Shown here: positions 2 to 37,959 of the stretch, one piece after another
Numbering within the stretch: the stretch's first letter is position 1
Layout: every line of letters starts with the position of its first letter
Program-made: the position numbers and the translations under genes
Notes under the pieces: generated by a model
The model's database searches: none
Seen by the model: only the letters and a program-made list of their open reading frames with translations
What the model was told of the DNA's origin: nothing
Assembly: GCA_016201905.1 (NCBI GenBank)
Contig: JACQBQ010000055.1
Coordinates: forward strand, 1-46,022
Direction: 5' to 3'
Length of the DNA: 46,022 nt
Origin: Candidatus Melainabacteria bacterium
Lineage (GTDB): Bacteria; Cyanobacteriota; Vampirovibrionia; 2-02-FULL-35-15

Positions 2-121
2 TTTCTAAAGTTTGAAATTAATCGACTTAAAAGAGGTATTTCCTTTAATGAGCAGAAACTTTTGCCGATACGCAATGAGATTAGGTTGGCAACCTGGCGT
101 CCTGCCTTCACTTGGGCTTAA
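2..121 (+). CDS. Possible C-terminal end of a gene entering from the left
   Basis: An open frame without a start runs from the window edge to a TAA at 119-121 and gives 39 residues ending in RPAFTWA. Base composition here is less AT-rich than in the spacers. Its stop overlaps the last bases of the giant convergent gene by a few nucleotides, a typical convergent arrangement. No family is recognised from so short a tail, and an open frame of this length can arise by chance, so this is tentative. Confidence 0.3.
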   Translation, partial: FLKFEINRLKRGISFNEQKLLPIRNEIRLATWRPAFTWA

Positions 122-3100
122 TTAAAACCGTGACTCCTAGATTCAATATTAGGTGCAAGGGATAGGGTGGTAATGTACGCACCTGTACCTGTTGGGTTTA
201 TTATTGTTTTAATATCACCTTCTCCAATATCAAGTATCCTTTTAGATTGAATGATCTTTTCTATTGCTGTCGTCTTCCCATACTTCCTAAAAACCCCGCC
301 CACAAAAGGTTCTATGAAATTAAGTTCTGAATTACTTGGAATAGTTACGCTCATGCTAAAAGTGTTTTGACCGTTAAATTGTAGCTGGAAATTATAAGTT
401 CCTTCAGGTAAGCATGCATAGTATAAACCTGGCTGAGCAGGTATGTGAGCAAATGGCTCAATGACTTTTGGATTAAATGTGTATCCTTCTACACTAATTC
501 CTACCATTGTATTTGTCCTCTTTATATCTAAATTATTTAAATCTTTTCCAATGATAAATCTTCTATCTATAATACCAAAAGTTTTCTTGCAGGTTGTGTC
601 TTGGGTTTCTACTTTTAGTTTTGAATTAGCTAAAGCATTATAAATTATTAATCCTGCAGCACCAATGGCTTGTATTTGCCATGGAAGTAACCTGCTGGGT
701 AGTGTCGGAATTGCAATTGCTCTTAAAAGCAAACTGTCAGGAAGATCAATATTTGCAATTGGACTTTGTATACCAATTTCTTTTAGTGTTTTTGATAGCT
801 CAATTAATGACACCACTAGTGGCAAATCTTGTTTTATTGAACTTAAAATATACTCCTGAAAATTAGAAGTAGATATACCACACTGGAAAGTACTTTGAAC
901 AATTTGCTGTTTAAGATTTGAGCTGGATTCTCCGCTGTCTGCCAGATTACATCGAAACTTATCAATGATATTTAGAAGCTCGTATATGGCCTCCTCGGTT
1001 TCTAAATCATAGCCATTGTTATTGTCATCACTTAAAAGTTTTAAATCTTTAAGTAATTGCTTAAGTTCACTAAGAGTTATCTGATCTTTAAATGGAAAAC
1101 TAACAGATTGAATATTAAATCCTGGATCATTAGGTATGAGGGCTGTTCCGCTGTTTGCAAATGGAAGCTTTATAGAATCAGTCTCCTTGCTTGACTCTGT
1201 AAAAAACTGTTTATCCTGAAGTTGGCATTTTGCTAATCCACTTAATGCGCTAATTTCCTGGGCATTGGTTAATTTTTCATTTAGCAAAGTGTTTATTGCA
1301 TCACATTGTGCTTTAAGTAAATCATTGACTGATATTGTATAAACTCTAAACTGCTTTTCTTCTTCTCTAACCCTTTGAATAAAGTTTTCTTTCCATTCAT
1401 TAGGAAGCTCTTCTTTGATTCTGTTTAAGAAAATGTCACTTCTTTGAATTTCAATTTTTACTTTATCTGTTTCTGGTAGTAGAATAATAATTTTAGATTC
1501 GGTTAGTTTTGCTGCTCCAGTTGAGTTTGTAAATGAAAACTTTTGAGTTTTAATTGTTTCATCTAAACTTTTGATTTCATTATTATTTGCGTCAAATGGT
1601 GTAAGCATTACGATTAGTTCATCTCCCTTATTTAAGGAAGTGTTGCTTCTAACAACCAGATTTAATTCTTTATTTCCACTTTTTAATTTTTTAAGTTTTG
1701 TTTGTTTAGTAACTTGAGGATTATCAATTAAAATTAGCTTTTGAGGTTTTCCTGAAAAAGTTAAATTATTTTTTATATTTGTATAAGTGCTATAAACTTC
1801 TATAAGTCCAAAGGCTTCTCCGTTTGTGAATAAATCTTTAAAGCTAGCTAATGTGTGTAAATCAAATGGCAATTTTGTCTGGAAATTAATATCATCATTT
1901 GTTTTGCTGTTTCCTGTAACCCTTATAATAGGCTCATCACCATTATTTGCCTTAATTTGAATTTTGCCTTTGCCGTTTATGGATAAAGCAAATTTTACGT
2001 TTTGCTTTTCAAATTGATTTATATTGCTTGCTGCCCCAAGAAGTTTTGCAGAGATGATGTTTTGATAAGTGACTATTTCTCCGCTAGATGGATTAATAAT
2101 TTCTGCCGGGAATTGTCCCTGAACAGGAATATTGATCTCAACTTTAGTCTTATAACCATTGGGATTTTCACTGTCTTGTGTAAGTTCAACTGGAATAGTT
2201 AACTTATATTCTTCACCAGAAGAAGGAAGTTTGTCAGCTTTAAAATCAAATGAAACTTTAATTAAGCCGATTTTATTATTGTTCGGATCAATAGATTCAC
2301 TACTATCAACTATCATTAAGTTTTCAATTTTTGACTGGGAACCAACAGGCTTAATTAAAGTTGATTGATCAAGGAGTAGTTTAATTTTTTTATCTTGCAG
2401 ATTAAAAGTAAGAAAATCTTTTACTTTAACTGTTGAAGTAAAAGCTGTATTTTCATTTAATAAAGCTACATTTGGCTCAAGAGATTTAGAGACCTCAACT
2501 GGTCTTATAATTTTAATATTGTAGTTTTGCTCTCTTTGAGTTGATATGTCATTTGGATCGTCAAGGTTTACAAGTGAAACTCCACCACTTGGGCTTGTTA
2601 CCCCAATCATGATTTTTATATTATGTGTGCCAATATTCCATGGCTTGGAAAGATATTTATTTGTGCTTGGATTATAAAGTGGACTTATGAAATCATTTTG
2701 ATTTAGCTGACTTGATCTGTAAATTATATTTGTGTTTGGAGAAGCACCATCTAAATCACCTGCATTAAATGTATTGTGCAGGGCAGTCAGTTCTTTATTG
2801 TCTTCAAAAAGCTCTTTATCAAGAGATTGTAAATTGCTACCTTTATACGATCCTGTAGCCATTAATATTAAGTCAGCATAAGCATCATTTTTTCCTGCAG
2901 TATCTCCGTAGAACTTAACACTTGTTTGGATTTTAAATGGTGAGCCTATGCCTATTGAATAACCTTCTTCTCCTTCAGTATTGCCAATAATTGGAATCTC
3001 TGAATTATCTCTAAGAGAAAATATTCTGTTAAAGATATATGTGTTATTGCCAACGCCAATGTTAAAAACTTCTTCAGTAGTATTTCCGGCTTTGTCAGAT

Positions 3101-6100
3101 GCCCTAATGGTAAGCTTGTGTTTGCCATTTAAAATGCTGCTGATTTCTTTAAAGAAAATAATATTTCCATCTTCTGTTGTTTCAAAATCATCCTCAAGGA
3201 TTCTTATTGGAGCATTGTTGTCTATCTGATATTCAATGTGATCAAAGTTTTCATCGGATGTGGAACCAAACAATTTTATATTTTCATTTTTTAGAATATC
3301 TTCGTCCTGTGGTGTAAAGATATTCAATGATGGTTCTATACTATCTAATACAATCTCTCTTACTTCACTCATTAATACCTGGCTTGAGCTGTCGCTTGTT
3401 TCAAAATAATAAGTATTTTTTCCTTCAGAAAGTGAAATAGTCTGAGATGAATTGCCTGGATCTAATTCAGTGATATTTTCATTTCCATTCTCATCTTTAA
3501 TTCTTATTCTCAGGCTGTTGTTTATATCGTTTGGATTGCTGAAAGCACTAAGCACCATAAAAGTAACAATGGGTTCATTAGTGTAAGCAAGTTTGCTTAA
3601 GTCATCTAATAGGTAAATCCCCGCTTGTCCTGTCCCACTGGCTATAATGTTTGCCACATTAAACACAAATACTTTTTCGGATTCTTTTATGCTTACTTTT
3701 AGTTTTGGTGAATATGTATCTGGTTTTGTATAAGTATGAGTAAAAGTTTTATTTATTAAATCATTGTAAGTAATATTTCCACTTTCAATGCTTCCATCGC
3801 TGTAATCGATTTCATATTTTGTAACTGTTGCATTAACTTGTTTTGCAGTCTGTGGATCAATCATAAGATTTACAGTAAATGGAACAATGCCTGAAGTTTC
3901 ATCAGACTTTATGTCAAGTAAAATAAAGTTTGGTTCAGCATTAAAAGTAATTGTTCCAGCTGATGCTTCCCAAATTTCAGATATGCCGCTTGCAAACATT
4001 GTAGAGGCTGTAAGTTTAGGAGTAATTGATTTTCTGTCTATAAATGGCTGCCCATTAAAAGATTTTTTACCATCAAAGTAATAATGTTTTGGATTGGCTT
4101 GTGTGCAGTCACTCGGCAAAGATTGAGTGGAACAAGAACCGTCGCCAAAGTCCCATTTGTATACTGTTGAAGTTGGGTTTCCTCCTAAGATTGTTACATT
4201 TGACATGAATTGAACTGGTACTCCGGGATTAGAAGAATCAACTGTATTTGGATCATAAACTTTTTTATCATTAGGGTCAGTGGTAGCAAATACAATTACC
4301 ATCTGATGTGGATAAGTAACAGTCACAGATTCAGTGGAGGCAGTGTCTGTTTGACCGGTTTGATCGCGAACAGTTAATCTTCCAAAGTAAGTGCCGGGAT
4401 TAACTAAGCTTCCAGAAAGAAAAGTCTTTTTATCATCGGAGATTTTTGAATCTATAGGTGGTGAAAGCAAGTTTTCACTCTGGTTAAATTTCTTTTGATA
4501 TAATTCCCAAATATTATTTTGTGAATTGACATAATCAATTGTGCTTGAAAATCTTTGATTTGGATCATAGCTGCCTACATCTATAAATGCAGTTCTAAGC
4601 GGAGGATTCGTTGCAAAGATTGGGTATTGTTCACTAAAAACTCTGGCTTTTGCAACTGGTTTATAGTTTGGATAAACTTGAATAGTTGGACCATTATAAT
4701 TTCCAATTTTTGTTTGGATGCCATCTTCTATCCAAAAGACATCTAGGCTTGGACTAAAAGTAAGAGGCACTGTTGTATTTGACACTTGATTGTGATACGT
4801 AAATATGGCGCTGTCAGTGCTTATTAGCCCTGTCTCTTTTCCATCACCAGCTTTAAAATTGAATCTTAATTTTGAAATATTTTCCTGTCCACTTGGTATT
4901 TGAACTTTAAATTTAATTGACTGGTCATCTTGAATTACCTTATTTACACTTTGTATAAAACCTGTGTTCTCGGAATTAGTTTCCTCGATTCCAAAAAGGG
5001 TAAGCACAGCAGGCTTTGGAGTAAAGGTAAGCCTGTGTGATGCAGGTACAAGTTCCCCAGAATTTGAATATCCTAAAAGCTTGTCAGTGAAAAATTTATA
5101 TGCTTCAAGATCTGAATAGTCATAGCCAAAATCTGAAAGCCTTATAACAGAAGTAATTATAGTGTAATTGCCTGGTTTAGTATTTATACTAAGAGGTATT
5201 GAACCAGTAAATAAAATTTGTCCAGTAGAATCTTTTATGCCAGAAAGAATAATTGTTGAAAAGCTATTTGAGATATTTGGAATCGTAAGCAATTTTCCGT
5301 CAGGGTCAATTACCCCGATTAATGCAGCATAGTAAGGATTATTGTTAAGTGTTACTTTGTCAGTTGCAGTAAGCTCAACACTAAAACTATTTCCTGGGAA
5401 AGGTTGAATTGGACTTACTTTAAAAGAGCTTGGAACTAATTCAATTTTATCTCTTACAGTTAATGAAGTAGTAGATGATCTTTTATTATTTCCGATTAAA
5501 TAAATACTCTTAGATCCTGGACTGTCAAATTTGTCAGGCAGGCTAATCGTGATTTGACTATTTGAAAAATTAATTTTGTTTACTGGTTTGTCATTTAAAT
5601 AAACAATTGTATTTTGATCAAAATTATCGCCATAAATTGCCAGAGTTCTGTTTAACCCTTCAAGTGATACTGATGTTGGGTTAATTGAATCAAGCCTTGG
5701 ACCACCACCATTTGAAAAAGTAGTATCCTGAATGATTAGTTTATCTGCACTTGAAGCACTATAGCTTATTTCAAGTCTGTGAGGGGTTCCTTGAGCAAGT
5801 GAAGAAGTGTTTAAGTTATTAAAGCTTAGTCCCTCAGAACCATAAGATATTTTTCCACCAATATAATTTCCATCTAGCCAGACAGTAATAATGTTGCTAC
5901 TTGCTGAACTATTTTTATAGTTAGTTACGGTTAAAGAAGTTTTTACATCATAATTTTTGTCAAGGCAGAAAGGAATTATTACTGAACCAGTTCCTTCTAT
6001 TGTGGCAGTTGGGGATGTAAGGTAAACATTGTTTCCATTTAAGATTGTTCTTGAATCTGCTCCCCAATATGTTTGCGGCAAACTCTTATTTAGAGAACAA

Positions 6101-9100
6101 GGATCGTTTGTGTTTGCATTTACTATAAAATAGCTGGCATATGATTTTGAGCCATCGCTGTTTTGGACATAAACATATTTTTGTCCTGGATTATTTAAAA
6201 AGTTTGCTGGTATTCGTGAAATAAGTAAATTAACTCCGCTTGCATATGGTGTGATTTGATTTCCATCAAAGTAAATCTTTGAAGACTGAGTAAAGTTGTC
6301 TCCATAAACATAAAGGTCAAATGAACCACGACCAGCAGTTTGTTCTCTTGGTGAAATTGATGTTACAGTTGGTGAGAGAATTTTTGTAAACGTAAAATAA
6401 TTTCCTGTCCAGGTAGCTGATGATAATTCAATCCCAGAATTATTTACTGGTCTGAATTGTATATATTTAGTAGTGCTTGCTTGGTTGCTTGTATATGAAA
6501 TTCCTGCTGCTTGATTCCAGTTTATAGTACCGATGAAACTGCCATCAACATAGATATTGGTTTTAAACCAGTTATTGAAATATGTTGACTGCAAAGAACC
6601 GTTGGTGCCAACTGCTATGTAGCCGTCTCTTTCTGTGCCTGGAATTACTGTAAGACTGAGCGAGTTTATGCTGCTTGTGCCACTAGATGGGTAGTATGGA
6701 TTACTTACACCGGAGATTCCAGTAACTTGGAAGCTAGAAGTTTGAAGTTTGTTATTTGACTCTTTATTCAATAATCTAAGTTTTTCATTGTGATTGTCAG
6801 TAATATTCTTTCCTTTTAAGTGCAGCCTGTATTTGCTTACAATTTCATTTGTGGCTGATTCAATAGTTCTAGCTTTTGTAATCGTAGAATTATCTTCTAT
6901 CTCTTTTACTTCATTTGGTTCAATAACATTGTCAAAGTTTGAAATAATTTTACTGCCTGAATGATCATTGCTTGAGACCTCAAATGTTGCACTTATTTCC
7001 TCTTTGTTATCTTGTAAGTTTATTTTTGCAACCTGATTATTGCTTGTGTCGCTTGCAGTAAGCTTTATTTTATAAATCCCAAATGGTAAGTCTTTAGGAA
7101 TTGGAATTGTCTCTTCAATATAAAATTCGTTTTTTAAAACTTTATCGTCACTTTGATTTATTAAATCAATTGCTTTTTGAATTATAATTTTATTGTCAGC
7201 TCCTGTTACCGAATAGCCAAAGCTACTAAGTGCAATGTCATCTCTTACAAATGCTGATAATTTAACAGCGCTGCCGGGTTTAACTGTCTTTGGATATATA
7301 TTTATTGGTCCAATTTCTGGCTTTGTGTTGTCAGTGGATATATAAGAAGAAATAGCTTCTTTTAACATAGAGTCAGTTGGTTCTTGAGTTTCTTCCTTGG
7401 TTTGAAATAAGATATTTCTTTTGGTGTCATTGCGAGCACCGATAGGCGCGAAGCAATCCCGATTGTTGTCTTGTGAAGATAAGTCTGGGATTGCTTTGCT
7501 CGCCTCGTCTCCGACGAGTCGGAGCGGGTCGCTTTGCTCCTCGCAATGACGTGTATTGGCTAAAGCTGTTCTACTAAGCAAAGTACTATTGTTAATATTT
7601 GGTGATTTTGAAATTTTTATTGAACTGCTTTGAGAAAAACCAATTTGGTTATCATTGTCAATAACAATAAGTGTAGGTGTAAATGTTCCTTCCTTGCTAA
7701 AAATATGCTTTGGTGAAATCTCATTTGACTTTTCATTGTCACCAAAATCCCATGTGAAAAGTTTTATTCTACCACCAGCTTTTGGATCATAGCTCTCGCT
7801 TCCATCAAAGTTTACTTCAAGACCTGGTTCTCCTGTAATATTTTCACTTCTTATTTTTGCCACTGATACAGGAGCTTGTTCAGGTGTAATAGTATATGTT
7901 TCTCCAATAAACTGGGATTTTGTACCATCACTTTTTTCAATTTCAAGAACTGGTGTAAATTGTCCAGAGTTGGTAAATGTATAATCAAAAATTTCCTGGG
8001 TATTTATACCTTGCTTTTCTAATTCATTATTTACATCTTTTGAAATATCAATTAGATTTCCAGTTACATCCCAGGTTCTTGCTGACCATGACCATTTGTA
8101 TTTGAGTTGTGTGCCACCTTCAGGATCAAAACTGCCACTAGCTGAGAGTTTTATTTTTACTTTGCCAAGAACACCTTTTTCATCCCCTTCCAATTTTTTA
8201 ATTTGACCAACAATACCTTTGTTTGGTCCGACAATAATATTTCCTGTAGTTATTTTTTTAGACCTATTGTCATTAGTCGTTGCAGTTAGTGTAACCAGGT
8301 AAACTCCTGGGTTTTCATAATTATGCTTTACGATGCCATTTGAGCTGTCAACAGTTTCTGATAATCCGTCTCCAAAATCCCATTTTAAAGTCACTGGTTT
8401 TGCATCAAAATCCTGTGAGGAGCTGCCATCAAATCTAACTTCAAAAGGTGAATTACCAGTAGTTTTGTCTATAGTTGCAATTGCACTTGGAAGTGGCTTT
8501 GAAACAGACACTTTTATTTCTTTAGTATCTTGTCCTTTGCGTGGATCAGTTACTGTAAGCTTTACTACATATTCGCCAGAATTAACATATTCGTATTTTG
8601 GGTTTAACTCAGAACTTTTTGAGTTATCTCCAAAGTCCCAGCTATAAGTCAAGTCTTCTCCATCGGGATCAAATGTTCCATTGCTTGAAAACTGAACAAT
8701 GCTTGTAAAAATCCCATCTTTATTTACTTTTAAAGTGCTGTCTTTTGGAATTCCTGCAATTTGAGAAATTGGTTTATTGTTTGGTGGAAGTAGTGTAAGT
8801 TTAGCTGAGGTAATATTTGTTTTTGCACCAAGAGAGTCAGTGACCGTAAGTAATGGTTTATAAATCCCGGGGATTGTATAAATATGTGTTGGATTTGTTT
8901 CTTTGCTTGTGTTTCCATCCCCAAAGTCCCATAGATAGTTAATCTTGTCATTTTCTTTGTCGCTTGCTTTAGAAGTAAAATAAACTAATAAAGGTACATC
9001 ACCAGTGGTTATGTTGGTTTCAAAAGTACCTTCAGGTGCAAAGTTTTTTTCCCTGATTTCAATTTCCTGTGTAGCGCCAGATGATTTGTTGTAAGAGTTT

Positions 9101-10023
9101 AATGCATTTAAAGAAACCAAATATTTCCCAGGTTTTAAATATTTATGTGTGGTAGTTACATTTGTAGAAGAGTTTAGATTATCGAGGGATGAAAATTCAT
9201 CTCCAAAGTCCCAAGAATAACTTAGTGTTTGTCTAAAATATTTAGCTAAAATGTCATCGGTTCCACTTGCGTCAAAAGTTACTATCTGAGGTGCAACGCC
9301 AATGCTTGGCGTTGCACTTATTTTTACAACAGGAGTTGGATCAACTACTTTTATGTTAGCTCCATCGCTGACTCCTCCTTCTGGTGGTGGGTTTGCTACA
9401 TAGATATAGAAACTGTTTGTGGTCTTAACGTAGTTTGATGGGATAGTTACAGTTAATTCTTTTGATGAAATATATTTTGTAGTTATTGTTGATGTTTCAA
9501 TAGATGCAACAGAGTCTTTTACAAAATTATCTCCCATTAAGCTAAGAGAAAATGTGCTGCCATCTGTAGTAATTGGCAAAACATTTGGTGAAATTGACTC
9601 TAAGATAGGAATCCCATTATATGTTCTGTATGAAACATTTGAGCTTGCAAGTTTGATTTGACTGCCTGTAAATGAGTTTAGAAAATAGCTTACTGGACTA
9701 GAACTGAGTTTAATTGAATCAGCACTTTTTAATAATGAATAGCTTGCAGGAAGTGAAGCAACCGACAAGTTGCTTAGTGGATTTATAGTGTTAAAGCTAA
9801 CTGGTGGTGAGGAAAGCTGAACGGTCTCTGCCAGGTCACTTAAAGTATAGCTAACTAATAGTGAGCTTAATGAAACTGTATTAGGTAAATTGTTTATCTT
9901 AAAACTTACAGGTTGTGATTGTAATTTTGTAAGGTCAGATGTTGTCTGAGCCTTTGCCTGTAAGTGGATTAATGGATCAATAAGCAACTTTAGGCAACAA
10001 AATATAATCAATATTCTTTTCAT
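118..10023 (-). CDS. Giant secreted PKD/IPT-domain surface protein
   Basis: A predicted exported protein of about 3300 residues, probably an adhesin or surface-layer-like protein. The chosen ATG (10021-10023) starts a clear signal peptide (MKRILIIF... to AKA|Q) and has GAAGG about 7 nt upstream. An in-frame ATG at 10060-10062 would add 13 residues before the signal and has no ribosome binding site. After the signal come six degenerate repeats of 16-20 residues, then an IPT/TIG domain (near 9595). PKD domains follow, with WDFGD motifs encoded at 9199-9213, 8917-8931, 8626-8640, 8368-8382 and 7738-7752, a divergent copy near 8100, and a later one at 4141-4155. Two more IPT domains lie near 6365 and 5690, and an Ig-like domain near 3300. 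No sortase motif or catalytic domain was seen. A palindromic repeat interrupts the gene in frame at 7426-7550. The NHL-propeller gene lies 40 nt upstream on the same strand and is probably co-transcribed. Confidence 0.9.
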   Translation of the reverse strand: MKRILIIFCCLKLLIDPLIHLQAKAQTTSDLTKLQSQPVSFKINNLPNTVSLSSLLVSYTLSDLAETVQLSSPPVSFNTINPLSNLSVASLPASYSLLKSADSIKLSSSPVSYFLNSFTGSQIKLASSNVSYRTYNGIPILESISPNVLPITTDGSTFSLSLMGDNFVKDSVASIETSTITTKYISSKELTVTIPSNYVKTTNSFYIYVANPPPEGGVSDGANIKVVDPTPVVKISATPSIGVAPQIVTFDASGTDDILAKYFRQTLSYSWDFGDEFSSLDNLNSSTNVTTTHKYLKPGKYLVSLNALNSYNKSSGATQEIEIREKNFAPEGTFETNITTGDVPLLVYFTSKASDKENDKINYLWDFGDGNTSKETNPTHIYTIPGIYKPLLTVTDSLGAKTNITSAKLTLLPPNNKPISQIAGIPKDSTLKVNKDGIFTSIVQFSSNGTFDPDGEDLTYSWDFGDNSKSSELNPKYEYVNSGEYVVKLTVTDPRKGQDTKEIKVSVSKPLPSAIATIDKTTGNSPFEVRFDGSSSQDFDAKPVTLKWDFGDGLSETVDSSNGIVKHNYENPGVYLVTLTATTNDNRSKKITTGNIIVGPNKGIVGQIKKLEGDEKGVLGKVKIKLSASGSFDPEGGTQLKYKWSWSARTWDVTGNLIDISKDVNNELEKQGINTQEIFDYTFTNSGQFTPVLEIEKSDGTKSQFIGETYTITPEQAPVSVAKIRSENITGEPGLEVNFDGSESYDPKAGGRIKLFTWDFGDNEKSNEISPKHIFSKEGTFTPTLIVIDNDNQIGFSQSSSIKISKSPNINNSTLLSRTALANTRHCEEQSDPLRLVGDEASKAIPDLSSQDNNRDCFAPIGARNDTKRNILFQTKEETQEPTDSMLKEAISSYISTDNTKPEIGPINIYPKTVKPGSAVKLSAFVRDDIALSSFGYSVTGADNKIIIQKAIDLINQSDDKVLKNEFYIEETIPIPKDLPFGIYKIKLTASDTSNNQVAKINLQDNKEEISATFEVSSNDHSGSKIISNFDNVIEPNEVKEIEDNSTITKARTIESATNEIVSKYRLHLKGKNITDNHNEKLRLLNKESNNKLQTSSFQVTGISGVSNPYYPSSGTSSINSLSLTVIPGTERDGYIAVGTNGSLQSTYFNNWFKTNIYVDGSFIGTINWNQAAGISYTSNQASTTKYIQFRPVNNSGIELSSATWTGNYFTFTKILSPTVTSISPREQTAGRGSFDLYVYGDNFTQSSKIYFDGNQITPYASGVNLLISRIPANFLNNPGQKYVYVQNSDGSKSYASYFIVNANTNDPCSLNKSLPQTYWGADSRTILNGNNVYLTSPTATIEGTGSVIIPFCLDKNYDVKTSLTVTNYKNSSASSNIITVWLDGNYIGGKISYGSEGLSFNNLNTSSLAQGTPHRLEISYSASSADKLIIQDTTFSNGGGPRLDSINPTSVSLEGLNRTLAIYGDNFDQNTIVYLNDKPVNKINFSNSQITISLPDKFDSPGSKSIYLIGNNKRSSTTSLTVRDKIELVPSSFKVSPIQPFPGNSFSVELTATDKVTLNNNPYYAALIGVIDPDGKLLTIPNISNSFSTIILSGIKDSTGQILFTGSIPLSINTKPGNYTIITSVIRLSDFGYDYSDLEAYKFFTDKLLGYSNSGELVPASHRLTFTPKPAVLTLFGIEETNSENTGFIQSVNKVIQDDQSIKFKVQIPSGQENISKLRFNFKAGDGKETGLISTDSAIFTYHNQVSNTTVPLTFSPSLDVFWIEDGIQTKIGNYNGPTIQVYPNYKPVAKARVFSEQYPIFATNPPLRTAFIDVGSYDPNQRFSSTIDYVNSQNNIWELYQKKFNQSENLLSPPIDSKISDDKKTFLSGSLVNPGTYFGRLTVRDQTGQTDTASTESVTVTYPHQMVIVFATTDPNDKKVYDPNTVDSSNPGVPVQFMSNVTILGGNPTSTVYKWDFGDGSCSTQSLPSDCTQANPKHYYFDGKKSFNGQPFIDRKSITPKLTASTMFASGISEIWEASAGTITFNAEPNFILLDIKSDETSGIVPFTVNLMIDPQTAKQVNATVTKYEIDYSDGSIESGNITYNDLINKTFTHTYTKPDTYSPKLKVSIKESEKVFVFNVANIIASGTGQAGIYLLDDLSKLAYTNEPIVTFMVLSAFSNPNDINNSLRIRIKDENGNENITELDPGNSSQTISLSEGKNTYYFETSDSSSQVLMSEVREIVLDSIEPSLNIFTPQDEDILKNENIKLFGSTSDENFDHIEYQIDNNAPIRILEDDFETTEDGNIIFFKEISSILNGKHKLTIRASDKAGNTTEEVFNIGVGNNTYIFNRIFSLRDNSEIPIIGNTEGEEGYSIGIGSPFKIQTSVKFYGDTAGKNDAYADLILMATGSYKGSNLQSLDKELFEDNKELTALHNTFNAGDLDGASPNTNIIYRSSQLNQNDFISPLYNPSTNKYLSKPWNIGTHNIKIMIGVTSPSGGVSLVNLDDPNDISTQREQNYNIKIIRPVEVSKSLEPNVALLNENTAFTSTVKVKDFLTFNLQDKKIKLLLDQSTLIKPVGSQSKIENLMIVDSSESIDPNNNKIGLIKVSFDFKADKLPSSGEEYKLTIPVELTQDSENPNGYKTKVEINIPVQGQFPAEIINPSSGEIVTYQNIISAKLLGAASNINQFEKQNVKFALSINGKGKIQIKANNGDEPIIRVTGNSKTNDDINFQTKLPFDLHTLASFKDLFTNGEAFGLIEVYSTYTNIKNNLTFSGKPQKLILIDNPQVTKQTKLKKLKSGNKELNLVVRSNTSLNKGDELIVMLTPFDANNNEIKSLDETIKTQKFSFTNSTGAAKLTESKIIILLPETDKVKIEIQRSDIFLNRIKEELPNEWKENFIQRVREEEKQFRVYTISVNDLLKAQCDAINTLLNEKLTNAQEISALSGLAKCQLQDKQFFTESSKETDSIKLPFANSGTALIPNDPGFNIQSVSFPFKDQITLSELKQLLKDLKLLSDDNNNGYDLETEEAIYELLNIIDKFRCNLADSGESSSNLKQQIVQSTFQCGISTSNFQEYILSSIKQDLPLVVSLIELSKTLKEIGIQSPIANIDLPDSLLLRAIAIPTLPSRLLPWQIQAIGAAGLIIYNALANSKLKVETQDTTCKKTFGIIDRRFIIGKDLNNLDIKRTNTMVGISVEGYTFNPKVIEPFAHIPAQPGLYYACLPEGTYNFQLQFNGQNTFSMSVTIPSNSELNFIEPFVGGVFRKYGKTTAIEKIIQSKRILDIGEGDIKTIINPTGTGAYITTLSLAPNIESRSHGFN
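7426..7550. mobile_element. Palindromic repeat element inserted in frame in the PKD gene
   Basis: The element has perfect 11-bp terminal inverted repeats (GTCATTGCGAG at 7426-7436 and its complement at 7540-7550). An inner pair (7448-7460 with 7487-7499, one mismatch) and a 7-bp hairpin at 7509-7524 make it strongly foldable. It is less AT-rich than the flanking gene. It resembles the non-autonomous palindromic repeats scattered in many bacterial genomes, whose minus-strand translation reads HCEEQSD...ARND. Here that translation is present without a stop (roughly residues 825-866 of the host protein), so the host frame stays open. There is no transposase, so it would be mobilised in trans. 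No other copy was seen in this window. Confidence 0.8.
9610..9945 (-). repeat. Six degenerate 16-20-residue repeats at the N-terminus of the PKD protein
   Basis: Right after the signal peptide the encoded protein repeats a pattern close to x-[IV]-x-L-x-S-x-P-V-S-[YF] followed by a short Leu/Asn-rich spacer. Examples are KLQSQPVSF, VQLSSPPVSF, IKLSSSPVSY and IKLASSNVSY. The repeats are divergent at the DNA level. Alternating hydrophobic residues suggest beta-strands. They end before the first IPT domain. Confidence 0.65.
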
Positions 10024-10063
10024 AGAAGCCTTCGAGCTCTCAACGCAGTTAAATATGCGCATA

Positions 10064-12590: not shown

Positions 12591-13426
12591 ATGGCAGACA
12601 TTGAAAAAGTAAACAAGTTAACTTTTGAAAATATTAAACACATAAACAATACGGCCAAGAATATTGGTCAAGTAGGGAATTGTCAAGAGTACTTGGGTAT
12701 TCTGAGTACAGGCATTTTATACCAGTTGTTGAGAAAGCAAAAGAAGCTTGTAAGAATAGTAGGCAAAAGGTTTATGACCATTTCGAGGATATGCTCGATA
12801 TGGTTCAAATTGGCTCAGGAGCTGAAAGAGAGCTAGATACAGTTCATTTGTCCAGATATGCATGTTATTTAATTATTCAAAATGCAGATCCGTCAAAAGA
12901 AATAATAGCTCTTGGGCAAACATATTTTGCAGTTCAAACAAGAAAACAGGAAATAATTGAATCTAAGAAATATCAAGAATTAAAAACTGAAGAAGAAAAA
13001 AGACTTTTTCTAAGAAGTGAAATGAAACGTCACAATAAAATCCTTGCTGCTACAGCGAGAGAATCAGGAGTTATTGAGCCAATGGATTATGCTGTTTTTC
13101 AGGATCATGGCTATAAAGGGCTCTATGGTGGTTTAAGTCAAAAAGGCATCCATAAGAAAAAAGGATTAATGAAAGGTCAGCAAATCTTAGACCATATGGG
13201 GAGTACAGAATTGGCTGCAAATCTGTTTAGGGCTACTCAGGCAGAAGAAAAATTGAGAAAAGAAAATGTTCAAGGAAAAGAAAAGGCAAATAAGACTCAT
13301 TATGAAGTAGGTTTAAAGGTAAGAAAAACCATAAAAGAACTTGGTGGAGAGATGCCAGAAAATCTTCCAACAGTTGATAGCATTAAAAAAATTGAAAAGA
13401 AATCTAATAGAAGAATCCAAAGCTAA
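12591..13426 (+). pseudogene. dinD: DNA-damage-inducible protein D, frameshifted
   Basis: The product matches the DinD family from recall: LSRVLGYSEYRHFIPVVEKA, DHFEDMLDMVQIGSGAERE, LSRYACYLIIQNADPSK, GQTYFAVQTRKQE and LYGGLSQKGIHKKKG are family hallmarks. DinD is an SOS-regulated protein reported to inhibit RecA filament activity in E. coli. The N-terminus (MADIEKVNKLTFENIKHIN) is in one frame and the remainder from YGQEYWSSREL on is in another. The break is at about 12647-12650, where one missing base (a G between AAC and AATACGG) would restore INEYGQEYWSSREL. Repaired length would be about 278 residues, close to the usual size. From a TTG at 12680 to 13426 the frame is open (248 residues), so a shortened protein is conceivable. 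It may be a young pseudogene or a sequencing/assembly error. Strong resemblance to DinD of distant phyla suggests transfer. Confidence 0.85.
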
Positions 13427-32569: not shown

Positions 32570-34513
32570 ATGAATGAAATGAAAAAATTTAGCACTACAA
32601 TTCCATTTGTAATTTTATTTATGCTTCTTAGCCTATTTGTAATTACCATAATGGCTAAGAAGGAAAAAGATAACGTACTCACGTATAGTGAATTTTTGAG
32701 AGTAGCTCTGCCTGAAGAAGGTTCATCGCCTGTAAAAAAGGTTATATTAACAAATGATACAGACAATCTAGTCGTAATATTTCAGGACAATAGTGAAAAA
32801 ATAGTTCGTGTACCTAATTCTGATGGAAAATCTTTAAAAGATCTGGCAGATAGCCTTGCAAAAAAATTAATAGAAGTAGAAGTACGACCGCCTAGTGGCA
32901 GTAGTTTCTGGCTAAGTTTTTTAACTTCGATTTTTGTACCTGTTTTATTTTTAATAATGCTTGTTTTTATGATTCGTAGTGCTCAAAGCGGTGGCTCACA
33001 AGCAATGAGTTTTGGAAAGAGCAGAGCAAAACTGCAGCAGGACACAAAAGTAAAAATAACTTTTGCTGATGTTGCTGGTGTTGATGAATCAAAGCAAGAA
33101 TTAGAGGAAATAGTAGACTTTTTGAAAAATGGTGAAAAATACTTAGCTATAGGAGCTAGGATACCAAAAGGTGTGTTATTAGTTGGTGCTCCCGGCACTG
33201 GTAAAACACTGCTTGCAAAAGCAGTTGCTGGAGAGGCAGGAGTACCGTTTTTTAGCATTAGTGGTTCTGATTTTGTGGAGATGTTTGTAGGTGTTGGTGC
33301 GTCACGTGTAAGAGATTTATTTGATCAAGCTAAAAAAAATGCACCATGTATTGTTTTTGTGGATGAAATTGATGCTGTAGGCAGGCAGCGTGGAGCAGGC
33401 CTTGGTGGCGGACACGATGAAAGAGAACAGACATTAAATCAGCTTTTAGTTGATATGGATGGTTTTGAATCCACGAGTGGGATCATTGTGCTGGCTGCAA
33501 CAAACCGCCCGGACATCTTAGATAGTGCACTACTTAGACCCGGGAGATTTGACAGGCAGATAGTTCTAGACAGACCTGATATAGCTGGAAGAGAAGCTAT
33601 TTTAAAAGTGCATGCAAAAGGTAAACCATTTGCACAGGATGTAGATTTAAAGGTACTGGCTAGGAGAACGCCGGGTTTTACAGGAGCTGACTTATCAAAC
33701 ATGCTTAATGAAGGTGCTTTGCTTGCTGCCCGTAAAAATAAGCGTGAAATTTTTATGGATGATTTAGAACAGGCAATTGATAAAGTTCTTGCTGGACCGG
33801 AAAGAAAAAGCAGAATTATTACACCGAAAGACAAAGAAATCACTGCTTATCATGAAGTAGGCCATGCATTGGTTGCTTATTATGAAAAAGATTCTGATCC
33901 TTTGCATAAAGTAACAATCATTCCACGAGGTATGGCGCTTGGTATTACAATGACTCTTCCTGAAGAGGACCATCTGAACTATACAAAATCCCAGCTTTTA
34001 GCCAGGATAAAAGTTTTACTTGGCGGAAGAGTTGCAGAAGAAATTATATTTGGTGATATTACTACTGGTGCTCAGAATGACTTGCAAAAAGCAACTGAGC
34101 TTTTAAGAAAAATGGTTACTCAGTTTGGAATGAGTGAAAAATTAGGACCAATGACTTTTGGGCAGACTAATGAGCATGTATTTTTAGGTCGTGATTTTGG
34201 ACATGTAAGGGATTACGGTGAAGAAGTTGCTACACAAATAGATGCTGAAATGAAAAGGATTATAAATAAACTATTTGATGACTGTAAAAGCTTACTAACT
34301 CAAAAAAGAAAACACATGGAAGCCTTATCGCAGGTACTTTTAGATAAAGAGACAATTGAAAAAGATGAGTTTAAAGAAATCGTTGAAAAGGTGGATGCCG
34401 GCACATTTGTATTTGAACCAAGAAAATCAAATGGCAAAACACAAAAAACTAACAATGGTGAAATAAGTACAAATGGCTCACAAGCACCAACTACAGAAAA
34501 ATTAACCTCGTGA
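32570..34513 (+). CDS. ftsH: ATP-dependent zinc metalloprotease FtsH
   Basis: 647 residues, membrane AAA+ protease for quality control of membrane and short-lived proteins. Two N-terminal helices ([19 protein letters not shown] and [22 protein letters not shown]) enclose a small periplasmic domain. Walker A is G206APGTGKT, Walker B is [12 protein letters not shown], the second region of homology ends [15 protein letters not shown], and the zinc site is H428EVGH with a C-terminal helical protease domain. It lies 85 nt after hpt; the segment contains TTGACA (32523-32528) but no -10 at normal spacing. The C-terminus has a Ser/Asn/Thr-rich tail. Confidence 0.97.
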
Positions 34514-34520
34514 CTTTGTC

Positions 34521-37292
34521 TTATCTCCAGTCACCAATTAAATTAAATAATGACCAGAACAATGGATGACTATATTTTGGATTTTCTTTTAGTTTTAGCT
34601 CGGCTCTTCGTAAAGACTCAGCTTTATCCAATCCAAGCTTAAGATTTTCGTAGAAGTTTTGCATTATGATTTTTGTGGCATCATCATGAGCCTTCCAAAG
34701 GCTTGCTAGGATTGTGTTTGCACCAGCCACTCTAAATGCTGTGGCTAAACTCCCAACGATGTCATCAGGCTCGTTTAAAAGATTCCCTAGTTTTCCCGTA
34801 TCGCATCCACTTAAAACAACAAGTTTGCTATTGTTTAAATTTAAATCATAAATATCTTTTAAGAATAACTTTTCCTGAACTGTATTTTTGCCTTGTTGTT
34901 TCTTTCCTGAGACAAGATAGCTTGATTCAATATCTTTACTGTCAAGATAGCCATGAGTAGCTAAGTGAATAATGTCAGCTTTTTTTGCAAGTTGATTTAT
35001 AAGAGGAACAGTGAAAGATCTTTGTACCAGCGTGGTGGCTGACATGCTGAATAACATTGTAATTACTTCAGCTTCTTTATTTGCACCGTTTAAAGTACCG
35101 TCAGGATTTGCAAAGACAGTTATTGATGCCATGTTTGATAATGGTGTAGCCGAATCTTTACTAATTGCAATAACACTGTCTAAATAGACAATTGATTTGT
35201 CTGAGATTAAAAATTTTAAGTCTCCATCTTTTGTTGGTTTTGCAAGTGATTGAAAAGGTAAATATCTGAGCCAGCCATTTGCAATTACTGCGATAAGTCT
35301 TTTATTGGCAATGTCATTTTCAATTGGAGCTATTAATGCATTGTATAAGAAAACATTTTTTTCTTTTAGTGGAAGTATTTCCTTCTTGTACGTATTTGAT
35401 TTATCATCTTTCCAGCTTATTATCGGGGTTACTCTGCCTGTTAGTTTGATTTTTTCAACTTCATTTTCAAAAAGCTGCCTGTAAGCCTGAACCTCTTTGT
35501 TTAAGACATCTTTTGTGATATTTTTATTAATCCTTGTTTTTAAATTTTTATTATCAACAACAAAAATTATTAACCCTTCTTCTGTTGGTATGTACTGAAG
35601 GATTACAGAATCATTTGGTATATTTGGCTGAATAGCTGCTAAGTCAAAAGGTTTTTGTATAAAAAGGTTTTTTAGTTGCGGTTTGTATTGCAGTAAATTG
35701 TTTAAAAGTGCAAACGTTTGAGATCTTGATTCTGCGCTTGCTGATTGGAGGAGCTGCTGGTATTTTGCCAGTTTTCTTGGATTCGGGTTATTTTTTTGCT
35801 TTTCACTGGTTAATAGCTTTTCAAGTTCTTCTACTTTTGATTTCAAGACCTCGGATTTTTTTAAGGTTTCAGAAAGTTCCTGGTTTTGTTTTGCTTCATT
35901 AATAGCAAGCATAATTAGATCAGCCTGATTTTTAATTTGTTTGTTTTCCTCAATTGTTGAAATTATTCTGGCAGGATCTTTTATTCCTTCAACTGTTGGA
36001 ACTATTGCTTCTTTTTTTATTTCACCTTGAGAATTCGTAAAAAGATATTGACTTAGATTTTTAATATTTTGAGTGATATTAGCATCTTCAGCATGTGTAG
36101 TGGCTTGTAGATCACTGGAAGCCTTCTCGGTCTTTTCATTTATTTTTTCAGATGGTGATTCATTTTGCTTATTTGTATCTTGCTGGGAGTTATCTGGCTT
36201 GTGTTGGTTTGAGCCTTGGTTGTGTTCTTGATGAATACTTGATGTGGTGGTGCTTATCAATGTTGTGTTTGCAGTAACTGTACTAACATCTGTATGAGTT
36301 GTTTGACTGGTCGTTTTATCTGAGGATGTTTCGTTACTAGGTGAGCTATTGGCAGGATGGGTTAGAGATTCCAGATCAATGGATTTTATATTGCTTGATT
36401 TTCCATCTGAGCTGGAAACAGCAAAGCTTATAGAATCTGAATTAACATCACCTGGTAAGTTAATAACTATTTCATTGTTATTTGCTGAAGCGATATCTAC
36501 CTGTCTGCCTATAACTGTGCCGTTATTGTTTTCAAGTAAAGTGACTGTGTTTTTACTTGGATCTGAGTCAAACATTGAACCCTTAAGAACAACTTTTTTG
36601 CTTGAAGGATCAAATTCTATTGAATAAATACCAGGTGAGTACGGATCAGCATTAAAAGAATCTGAATCTTTTACTTTGTTAATAGGATTCAGTACTGTAA
36701 ATGAAGCTTCAGCTTGACCATATGGCGTGCTTATAATTATGGGATAAGAACCAGGAGCAATGTTTGGATTTAATGAAACGGTTATATCAATTACAGAGCC
36801 ATCACTGGAAGGTCTTGTAGAGAGAATTGTAAATTCTTCACTTAGTGTAGTAATAAAAGGACTTGTTAAATTCTTCCCAGCCAGGCGGACAAGGGTTGTA
36901 TCACCAGGATAAGCACCTGCAGGAATTATATTATCAACTGTTGGCGAGCCTGATAGAGTTACTTGAAATGGGAATGTAGCTTCTACACCAGCTTCATTTC
37001 TTAAGAGCAAATTCCTTGGTCCTAACGCAGTAGGCTTTGCTGCAAGCTGGATAGCGAGTGTCTTTTGAGTTACATCTCTTTTTAAAATAACTGCATACAC
37101 GTCATCCCCAGTAACACCTACTATGTTTGGCAAATTTTCACCAGTTACTATAACTGTTGTTATTTGTCCCTGCTGAATATACTGAGGAGTAATACTATAA
37201 ATAACTGGAGCATCTTGAATAGCAAAAGAAGGAAGTATAAGTAATCCTTGAAGAATTAAAAATAATAATATTTTTTTATTATAGTTTTCCAT
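34521..37292 (-). CDS. Exported CHAT (caspase-like) domain protein with N-terminal IPT-like domains
   Basis: About 923 residues from the ATG at 37290-37292, which opens a signal peptide (YNKKILLFLILQGLLILPSF) and has GGAG 9 nt upstream. Upstream in-frame starts lie inside the previous gene. Two IPT/TIG-like domains follow (APVIYSITPQYIQQGQITTV and PTVDNIIPAGAYPGDTTLV), then a Thr/Ser/Gln-rich linker, a coiled coil (LSETLKKSEVLKSKVEELEK) and the CHAT domain. The catalytic pair of the caspase fold is seen as H780 in HLATHGYLD and C830 in VVLSGCDTG, followed by GSLATAFRVAGANTILASLW. CHAT proteins with TPRs are usually cytoplasmic; this one has a signal peptide, so it may act outside the membrane. 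Substrate and trigger are unknown. It is the last gene behind a response regulator and a BamE-like exported protein. Confidence 0.87.
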   Translation of the reverse strand: MENYNKKILLFLILQGLLILPSFAIQDAPVIYSITPQYIQQGQITTVIVTGENLPNIVGVTGDDVYAVILKRDVTQKTLAIQLAAKPTALGPRNLLLRNEAGVEATFPFQVTLSGSPTVDNIIPAGAYPGDTTLVRLAGKNLTSPFITTLSEEFTILSTRPSSDGSVIDITVSLNPNIAPGSYPIIISTPYGQAEASFTVLNPINKVKDSDSFNADPYSPGIYSIEFDPSSKKVVLKGSMFDSDPSKNTVTLLENNNGTVIGRQVDIASANNNEIVINLPGDVNSDSISFAVSSSDGKSSNIKSIDLESLTHPANSSPSNETSSDKTTSQTTHTDVSTVTANTTLISTTTSSIHQEHNQGSNQHKPDNSQQDTNKQNESPSEKINEKTEKASSDLQATTHAEDANITQNIKNLSQYLFTNSQGEIKKEAIVPTVEGIKDPARIISTIEENKQIKNQADLIMLAINEAKQNQELSETLKKSEVLKSKVEELEKLLTSEKQKNNPNPRKLAKYQQLLQSASAESRSQTFALLNNLLQYKPQLKNLFIQKPFDLAAIQPNIPNDSVILQYIPTEEGLIIFVVDNKNLKTRINKNITKDVLNKEVQAYRQLFENEVEKIKLTGRVTPIISWKDDKSNTYKKEILPLKEKNVFLYNALIAPIENDIANKRLIAVIANGWLRYLPFQSLAKPTKDGDLKFLISDKSIVYLDSVIAISKDSATPLSNMASITVFANPDGTLNGANKEAEVITMLFSMSATTLVQRSFTVPLINQLAKKADIIHLATHGYLDSKDIESSYLVSGKKQQGKNTVQEKLFLKDIYDLNLNNSKLVVLSGCDTGKLGNLLNEPDDIVGSLATAFRVAGANTILASLWKAHDDATKIIMQNFYENLKLGLDKAESLRRAELKLKENPKYSHPLFWSLFNLIGDWR

Positions 37293-37959
37293 AGACAAGA
37301 ACTCCATGCACCAAAAGATTTTTTGTTGCTTTATCTTGTCCAATGAGAAAACCAATGCCAGACCTAGGGTAGAGATAATATAATCCCAGATAGTTTTTGT
37401 TGTCTGGATCTTCAATAAAATCTTTTTCATTGACTGGCTCTCCATAGGCTGAGATCATTTTATCAATCTGATCGCCTATATTTACACCTATATTTTCTAC
37501 TATATTTTTAGGGTTAAATGATATGATGCCGATCACATGCTCAAGTTTCTCATCAAAAAAGACTTCAAGTAGCTCCTGATAGGTCCCGTCATCATTTGGT
37601 ATACCATAAACCCAGATTTTTCCATTATTCCTAATCTCTGTAGGATTCTTTAAAATTTCTTTTACTTGCTTGGGTGAACTCTTAATCTTAACCTGTGCAA
37701 GACTATCAAATGATTTTTGTATTTTTTGTGTAGTTTGTGCTGCTTTGTCCCAGTTGTCCGGATCTATAACCCAGCTCCCCCTGAAATTACTGTCAACAAT
37801 TGTTAATAAAAGATTTCTTGCATAATTAACAACATTTAAGTTTGATGCGGCTTTATGTCTTGCTTCTTGTGGGATTGAAAAGGCTGAACTTGTTACGGTA
37901 AGTAAAAAAACTATAGTTAAATTCAAAGACAAAATAATATTTTTTTTATTTATTTTCAT
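37279..37959 (-). CDS. Exported protein with BamE/SmpA-like repeats
   Basis: About 226 residues from the ATG at 37957-37959, which starts a signal peptide (NIILSLNLTIVFLLTVTSSAFS); an ATG 10 codons upstream is in the end of the response regulator gene. The mature part has the two-lobe pattern seen in SmpA/OmlA proteins: SPKQVKEILKNPTEI...IWVYG...LLEVFFDEKLEHVIGI, then IGDQIDKMISAYGEP...YYLYPRSGIGFLIG. In the family this fold is used for protein contacts in the outer membrane. It overlaps the start of the CHAT gene by 14 nt, so translation is coupled. Confidence 0.7.
   Translation of the reverse strand: MKINKKNIILSLNLTIVFLLTVTSSAFSIPQEARHKAASNLNVVNYARNLLLTIVDSNFRGSWVIDPDNWDKAAQTTQKIQKSFDSLAQVKIKSSPKQVKEILKNPTEIRNNGKIWVYGIPNDDGTYQELLEVFFDEKLEHVIGIISFNPKNIVENIGVNIGDQIDKMISAYGEPVNEKDFIEDPDNKNYLGLYYLYPRSGIGFLIGQDKATKNLLVHGVLVYGKL

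Follow-up and report, generated by a model that had tools for sequence, protein, structure and literature searches.

The window, that is, the whole stretch of 46,022 nucleotides analysed here, carries on its minus strand a gene for a giant PKD/TIG surface-type protein, and within this gene lies a 125-bp palindromic element (Table 1). As the preliminary description had proposed, the element occupies exactly 7426-7550: its ends form a perfect inverted repeat (GTCATTGCGAG versus CTCGCAATGAC, 11/11) and enclose an inner inverted repeat that is complementary at 12 of 13 positions. As a single strand, it folds far more stably than 200 dinucleotide-shuffled versions of itself, with z-scores of -6.3 for RNA and -7.1 for DNA. 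A target duplication had also been suggested at 7424-7427 and 7551-7554, and none is present: 7422-7425 reads TGGT and 7551-7554 reads GTGT, and 51 well-preserved copies of the repeat are likewise devoid of a consistent duplication (2-9 bp, at offsets 0-3, compared with shuffled flanks). Elsewhere in the window, a 974-aa ORF on the minus strand (34521-37445) displays weak similarity to the TPR-CHAT protein Csx29 (E 3e-4, far below the cut-off).

Table 1. The palindromic element, its parts and its host gene in the window
Feature	Position	Strand	Remark
Host gene, 3,314-aa PKD/TIG surface-type protein	118-10062	-	element is residues 838-879, linker after PKD domain
CGTC-type REP head-to-head dimer, MITE-like, 125 bp	7426-7550	.	
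Left terminal inverted repeat GTCATTGCGAG	7426-7436	+	perfect complement of 7540-7550
Right terminal inverted repeat CTCGCAATGAC	7540-7550	-	
Left tag TGTC	7425-7428	+	Y-GTC in 51/51 well-preserved copies
Right tag, minus-strand CGTC	7548-7551	-	GAC-R in 51/51
First REP unit, ATTGC...GCAAT basal stem and inner core	7426-7460	+	
Second REP unit, opposite orientation, longer inner stem module (GACTCGTCGGAG type)	7487-7550	-	
Inner inverted-repeat arm	7448-7460	+	pairs with 7487-7499 (12/13)
Inner inverted repeat, second arm	7487-7499	+	
Inter-unit spacer	7461-7486	.	

Translated on the minus strand, the element yields RHCEEQSDPLRLVGDEASKAIPDLSSQDNNRDCFAPIGARND, which is continuous with the host ORF. 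The gene is intact and its orthologues resume after the segment, in agreement with the initial reading of an in-frame insertion that adds about 42 residues between domains. The orthologue alignment proposed with that reading found PKD orthologues without the segment in eight genomes of the same family (G001, G002, G003, G005, G007, G008, G009, and G010); their match to the protein stops near residue 835 and starts again near 887, leaving about five unmatched residues on either side of an insert whose junction is approximate. In structure predictions, the insert appears as a very-low-confidence, disordered linker between two beta domains, and this linker is variable among relatives.

A dispersed repeat family and its copies within genes

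The element belongs to a repeat family that is widely dispersed in its genome. Its 2.28 Mb contain 110 exact copies of the 11-bp end, as opposed to 0 of a control read backward, and the genome-wide search that had been recommended returned 30 related places by blastn. These copies, together with the orthologues that lack the segment, mark 7426-7550 as mobile-repeat DNA, very probably inserted into the PKD gene in this lineage. From the flanking DNA of most places, about 60 forward/reverse (head-to-head) pairs of 42-150 bp were delineated; degenerate copies are under-represented among them, as the sample was centred on exact end-motif matches and the stronger blastn places. In the well-preserved copies, GTC is invariably preceded by C or T and GAC followed by A or G (51/51), and each unit follows the layout GTC-ATTGC-(variable inner stem)-GCAAT-YY. 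Units measure 20-71 nt and their inner cores are diverse, with 85 distinct sequences in 104 units, while identical stem modules reappear in different elements; the dimers encode 23-43 aa.

Genomes of the same family contain between 9 and 289 exact ends each, as well as two further repeat types, GTCATTCTGAG and GTCATTCCCGCGAAAGCGGGAATC, the latter with stem and loop sizes as in CGTC-1. A match to GTCATTCTGAG at position 34071 of the window lies inside an FtsH-coding stretch and was discarded as a chance occurrence. No similar DNA was found in phage and plasmid collections, and a literature search with the DNA motif returned unrelated papers only.

Among the 60 sampled dimers, 18 (about 30%) are translated in frame within genes, if the ORF is required to exceed 200 aa and to extend at least 40 aa beyond the dimer in either direction. 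Their hosts are the PKD protein, an Fe-S oxidoreductase, RecJ, AcsA, CarB, ferrochelatase (HemH), UvrC, a nucleotidyltransferase, NadD, HisF, MtnA, a thermonuclease-like protein, PabB, an amidase, a metallophosphoesterase, MtnB, LigA, and an unknown 1,366-aa ORF (L118). DNA ligase and enzymes of the histidine and arginine pathways are thus among them. These names, e.g., PabB or MtnB, stand for best family matches; nearly all of the hosts have named homologues, and the in-frame status of the 1,366-aa ORF is given by its open frame alone. When HisF, LigA, MtnA, CarB, and HemH are compared with solved structures, the matches break or gap at the insert, and in a model of HisF the barrel is intact (pTM 0.77), with the insert forming an extra loop (pLDDT about 31).

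Translation leaves the element as ...RND in 15 of the in-frame copies and as ...AMT in the other 3; the third exit frame, which contains a stop (CAA-TGA), is used by none of the 18. Since element length modulo 3 varies among these copies, the net insertion length is no fixed function of the element. As for the 42 remaining dimers, none causes a gene-breaking frameshift, and for most of them the nearest gene end is no more than a few tens of bases away.

Orthologous loops in related genomes

Orthologues from up to seven genera were compared for eleven of the in-frame host genes. In the alignments of CarB and UvrC, the difference in length is exactly that of the element (net 69 nt for an element of 69, and net 87 for 87, respectively), and in HemH it amounts to 75 for an element of 74 plus the tag base. 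The loops of HisF, UvrC, NadD, CarB, and MtnA are free of REPs in every relative compared. In other loops, as many as three REP families have inserted. That of PabB is filled in the genome under study, in G006 and in G007, and contains a third repeat type in G005; that of MtnB has a copy in the genome under study, two types in tandem in G003 and a short remnant in G004. In-frame copies related to GTCATTCCCGCGAAAGCGGGAATC are found in MtnB of G002 and PabB of G005. The HemH loop is filled both here and in G007, where the LigA loop, occupied by a copy in the genome under study, has kept a remnant. In the amidase, G002, G006, and G007 have single copies at the same place with different inner modules, and the gene of the genome under study (L111:2084-2197, G000:C40) contains a fresh CATTGCGAG dimer nested in an older copy that has decayed, the whole being in frame. 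Finally, the AcsA genes of this genome and of G004 share the position of their insert (L077:1990-2058, L257); in G004, its palindromic ends are decayed and the frame is open, making it a candidate for an old insert that is turning into ordinary coding sequence.

The PKD gene provides further examples. In its G010 orthologue, the very same linker contains, in frame, a dimer of another family (GTCATTCTGAG; L155:10106-10177 = G010:C29:36605-36676), this different REP being of the CATTCTGAG type. About 200 residues further on, a CATTGCGAG dimer is present (L155:9428-9529), again in frame, as is a monomer-like copy (6318), at whose site G005 has an in-frame monomer. The G009 orthologue has an in-frame CTGAG-type monomer elsewhere. 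Judging from these sequences, the giant PKD protein has been invaded by REPs repeatedly. Because different repeat families are found at one site in the PKD linker, PabB, and MtnB, separate insertion events are indicated in these cases; the same-site copies of PabB and the amidase across genera may represent either separate insertions or one old insertion with an exchanged inner module.

That several genera have inserts in the same loops (amidase, PabB, MtnB, HemH, and the PKD linker) could also mean that the insertions are selected, with linkers or mRNA hairpins being beneficial, for instance through domain spacing, slower translation or a regulatory RNA hairpin. The stable RNA hairpin would be in line with such an explanation, as would the AcsA site shared with G004, whose frame is open despite the decay of the palindrome ends. 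It is nonetheless unlikely: many orthologues are without an insert in the same loop, the sequence, length, and frame of the inserts all vary, the loops are length-variable also where they have no REP, and tolerance by itself explains repeated hits at permissive sites.

Mobility, origin and relation to known repeats

A Pfam Y1_Tnp search of the genome gave no match, and a search with a family-specific alignment identified two RAYT-like Y1 genes (G000:C30:5895-6410 and C40:34205-34720). The repeat was not found flanking the RAYT-like genes of this and related genomes, nor does it flank any transposase gene in its own genome, and repeat number is weakly associated with RAYT presence across the same-family genomes (p = 0.08). 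In another family, f4, the repeat-rich genomes G013, G018, and G037 (L166-L174) have 5-6 Y1 genes each, mostly of about 310 aa, and three repeat-free members are without this ~310-aa type; the f4 Y1 genes that were checked are not flanked by the repeat. The long Y1 type of f4 is a possible mobiliser, the association being only a lead since these genomes are related. In G010 (L155:15359-15958), G009 (L158:15422-15916), and G007 (L156:2896-3399), the PKD gene cluster has a RAYT-like gene upstream of it. Given the Y1 gene near the PKD gene in relatives, the window gene at 12680-13426 was considered as a RAYT; it was ruled out and corresponds to dinD.

By its size and terminal inverted repeats, the element could pass for a classical MITE, moved by the DDE transposase of a parental insertion sequence sharing its (YGTCATTGCGAG) ends. 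This origin is very improbable in view of the absent target duplication, of the absence of any larger element with the same ends among 100 listed end sites of the 110, and of the modular inner stems, which suit REP dimers better. As to ancestral coding sequence that is palindromic by chance, which the preliminary description had expected to be present as a single copy and in all orthologues, the continuous frame and intact gene would agree with it, and it can be given practically no weight against the 110 copies of the end and the eight genomes whose orthologues are without the segment.

Dispersed in the genome with constant Y-GTC...GAC-R ends, absent from orthologues, and retained with the frame intact, the element is thus very probably a non-autonomous CGTC-type REP dimer that was inserted into the PKD linker, having spread in trans as part of a family whose in-frame copies are retained in tolerant loops. 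Within this lineage, the PKD linker would have received its copy without a target duplication being created. The spread of copies would be due to a transposase that works in trans and has single-stranded hairpins as its substrate; RAYT-like Y1 enzymes are the candidates. Insertion itself would be wide, with selection then removing frame-breaking or domain-breaking events and keeping copies that adjoin genes or that lie in frame in tolerant, disordered loops, where they would be tolerated. A copy retained in this way would be translated as a linker and slowly decay as ordinary protein sequence, so that within genes the element would mainly be tolerated raw material for linkers, and not a domain with a selected function. 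More tentatively, several CGTC-type REP families might together provide this bacterial family with a continuing supply of new protein loops, through re-invasion of permissive loops of core enzymes and of the giant PKD protein by different REP families and through nesting in older copies, with old copies persisting as ordinary coding sequence once the palindrome has decayed and some perhaps selected; we consider this broader scenario a serious possibility, at somewhat less than even chances.

The contribution of protein-coding palindromes to protein evolution is, according to a 2024 review, unexplored (PMC10969869). Such palindromes are known mainly from Rickettsia; here, they are found in a second, unrelated lineage, with about 30% of sampled dimers in genes. 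In addition, relatives at the genus level display empty, filled, doubly filled, and decayed states of one site, a range that allows direct testing of how mobile DNA adds protein segments, which loops tolerate them, and whether they become useful. The finding also bears on what moves CGTC REPs.

With respect to known systems, the closest are the CGTC-tagged REPs, which are characterized by a CGTC or TGTC tag and a stem starting with AT, mostly form head-to-head dimers, are without linked transposase, and have some copies inside ORFs (Di Nocera et al., 2013, PMC3733652). The element has in common with them an unpaired CGTC/TGTC tag at one end (Y-GTC and GAC-R, 51/51 each), the AT-starting stem (GTC-ATTGC...GCAAT), head-to-head dimers (60 pairs sampled), spacers with stems, location beside gene ends, no linked transposase, and some in-frame copies in ORFs. 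The four published families have stems of 8-9 bp and loops of 4-5 nt (PMC3733652); the element differs from CGTC-1 to CGTC-4 by a basal stem of ~5 bp (ATTGC/GCAAT) and a long exchangeable inner module, and also by its lineage. As the features of the superfamily are present and the published stem and loop sizes are not, it is treated as the head-to-head dimer of a further family, the CATTGCGAG family, which is new among the CGTC-tagged REPs. The CGTC-1/dRS3-type repeat (GTCATTCCCGCGAAAGCGGGAATC) that co-occurs in relatives is a third family, distinct in sequence from the element of the window.

Classical MITEs differ by their target-site duplication, which is absent here. REPINs and their RAYTs (GTAG REPs) share with the element the two inverted hairpin units, the mobile dimer, and the lack of target duplication, and the genome does have RAYT-like Y1 genes; however, the tag is GTAG there versus YGTC here, and the RAYT-like genes of this genome are not flanked by the repeat.

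The likeness to the Rickettsia palindromic elements put forward in the preliminary description holds at the level of the superfamily, through the tag, the AT stem, and the head-to-head dimers (PMC3733652). Rickettsia RPE-4 and RPE-6, together with Neisseria dRS3, are CGTC-tagged REPs (PMC3733652), which makes the analogy sound, the kinship by shared tag being drawn from their published description (PMC3733652). Like RPE-4, RPE-6, and RPE-1, the family studied here consists of dispersed palindromes found in frame in unrelated genes. A difference is that its host is apparently not a member of the Rickettsiales: the nearest match of its partial 16S rRNA is to Cyanobacteria (77.8%, among plasmid-borne 16S copies) and SepF is present, both of which would be compatible with a non-photosynthetic lineage of Cyanobacteria (Vampirovibrionia). 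The scale of the phenomenon is nevertheless comparable, with 44 integrations of palindromic elements in R. conorii, as cited in a review (PMC10969869), and 18 of the 60 sampled dimers here.
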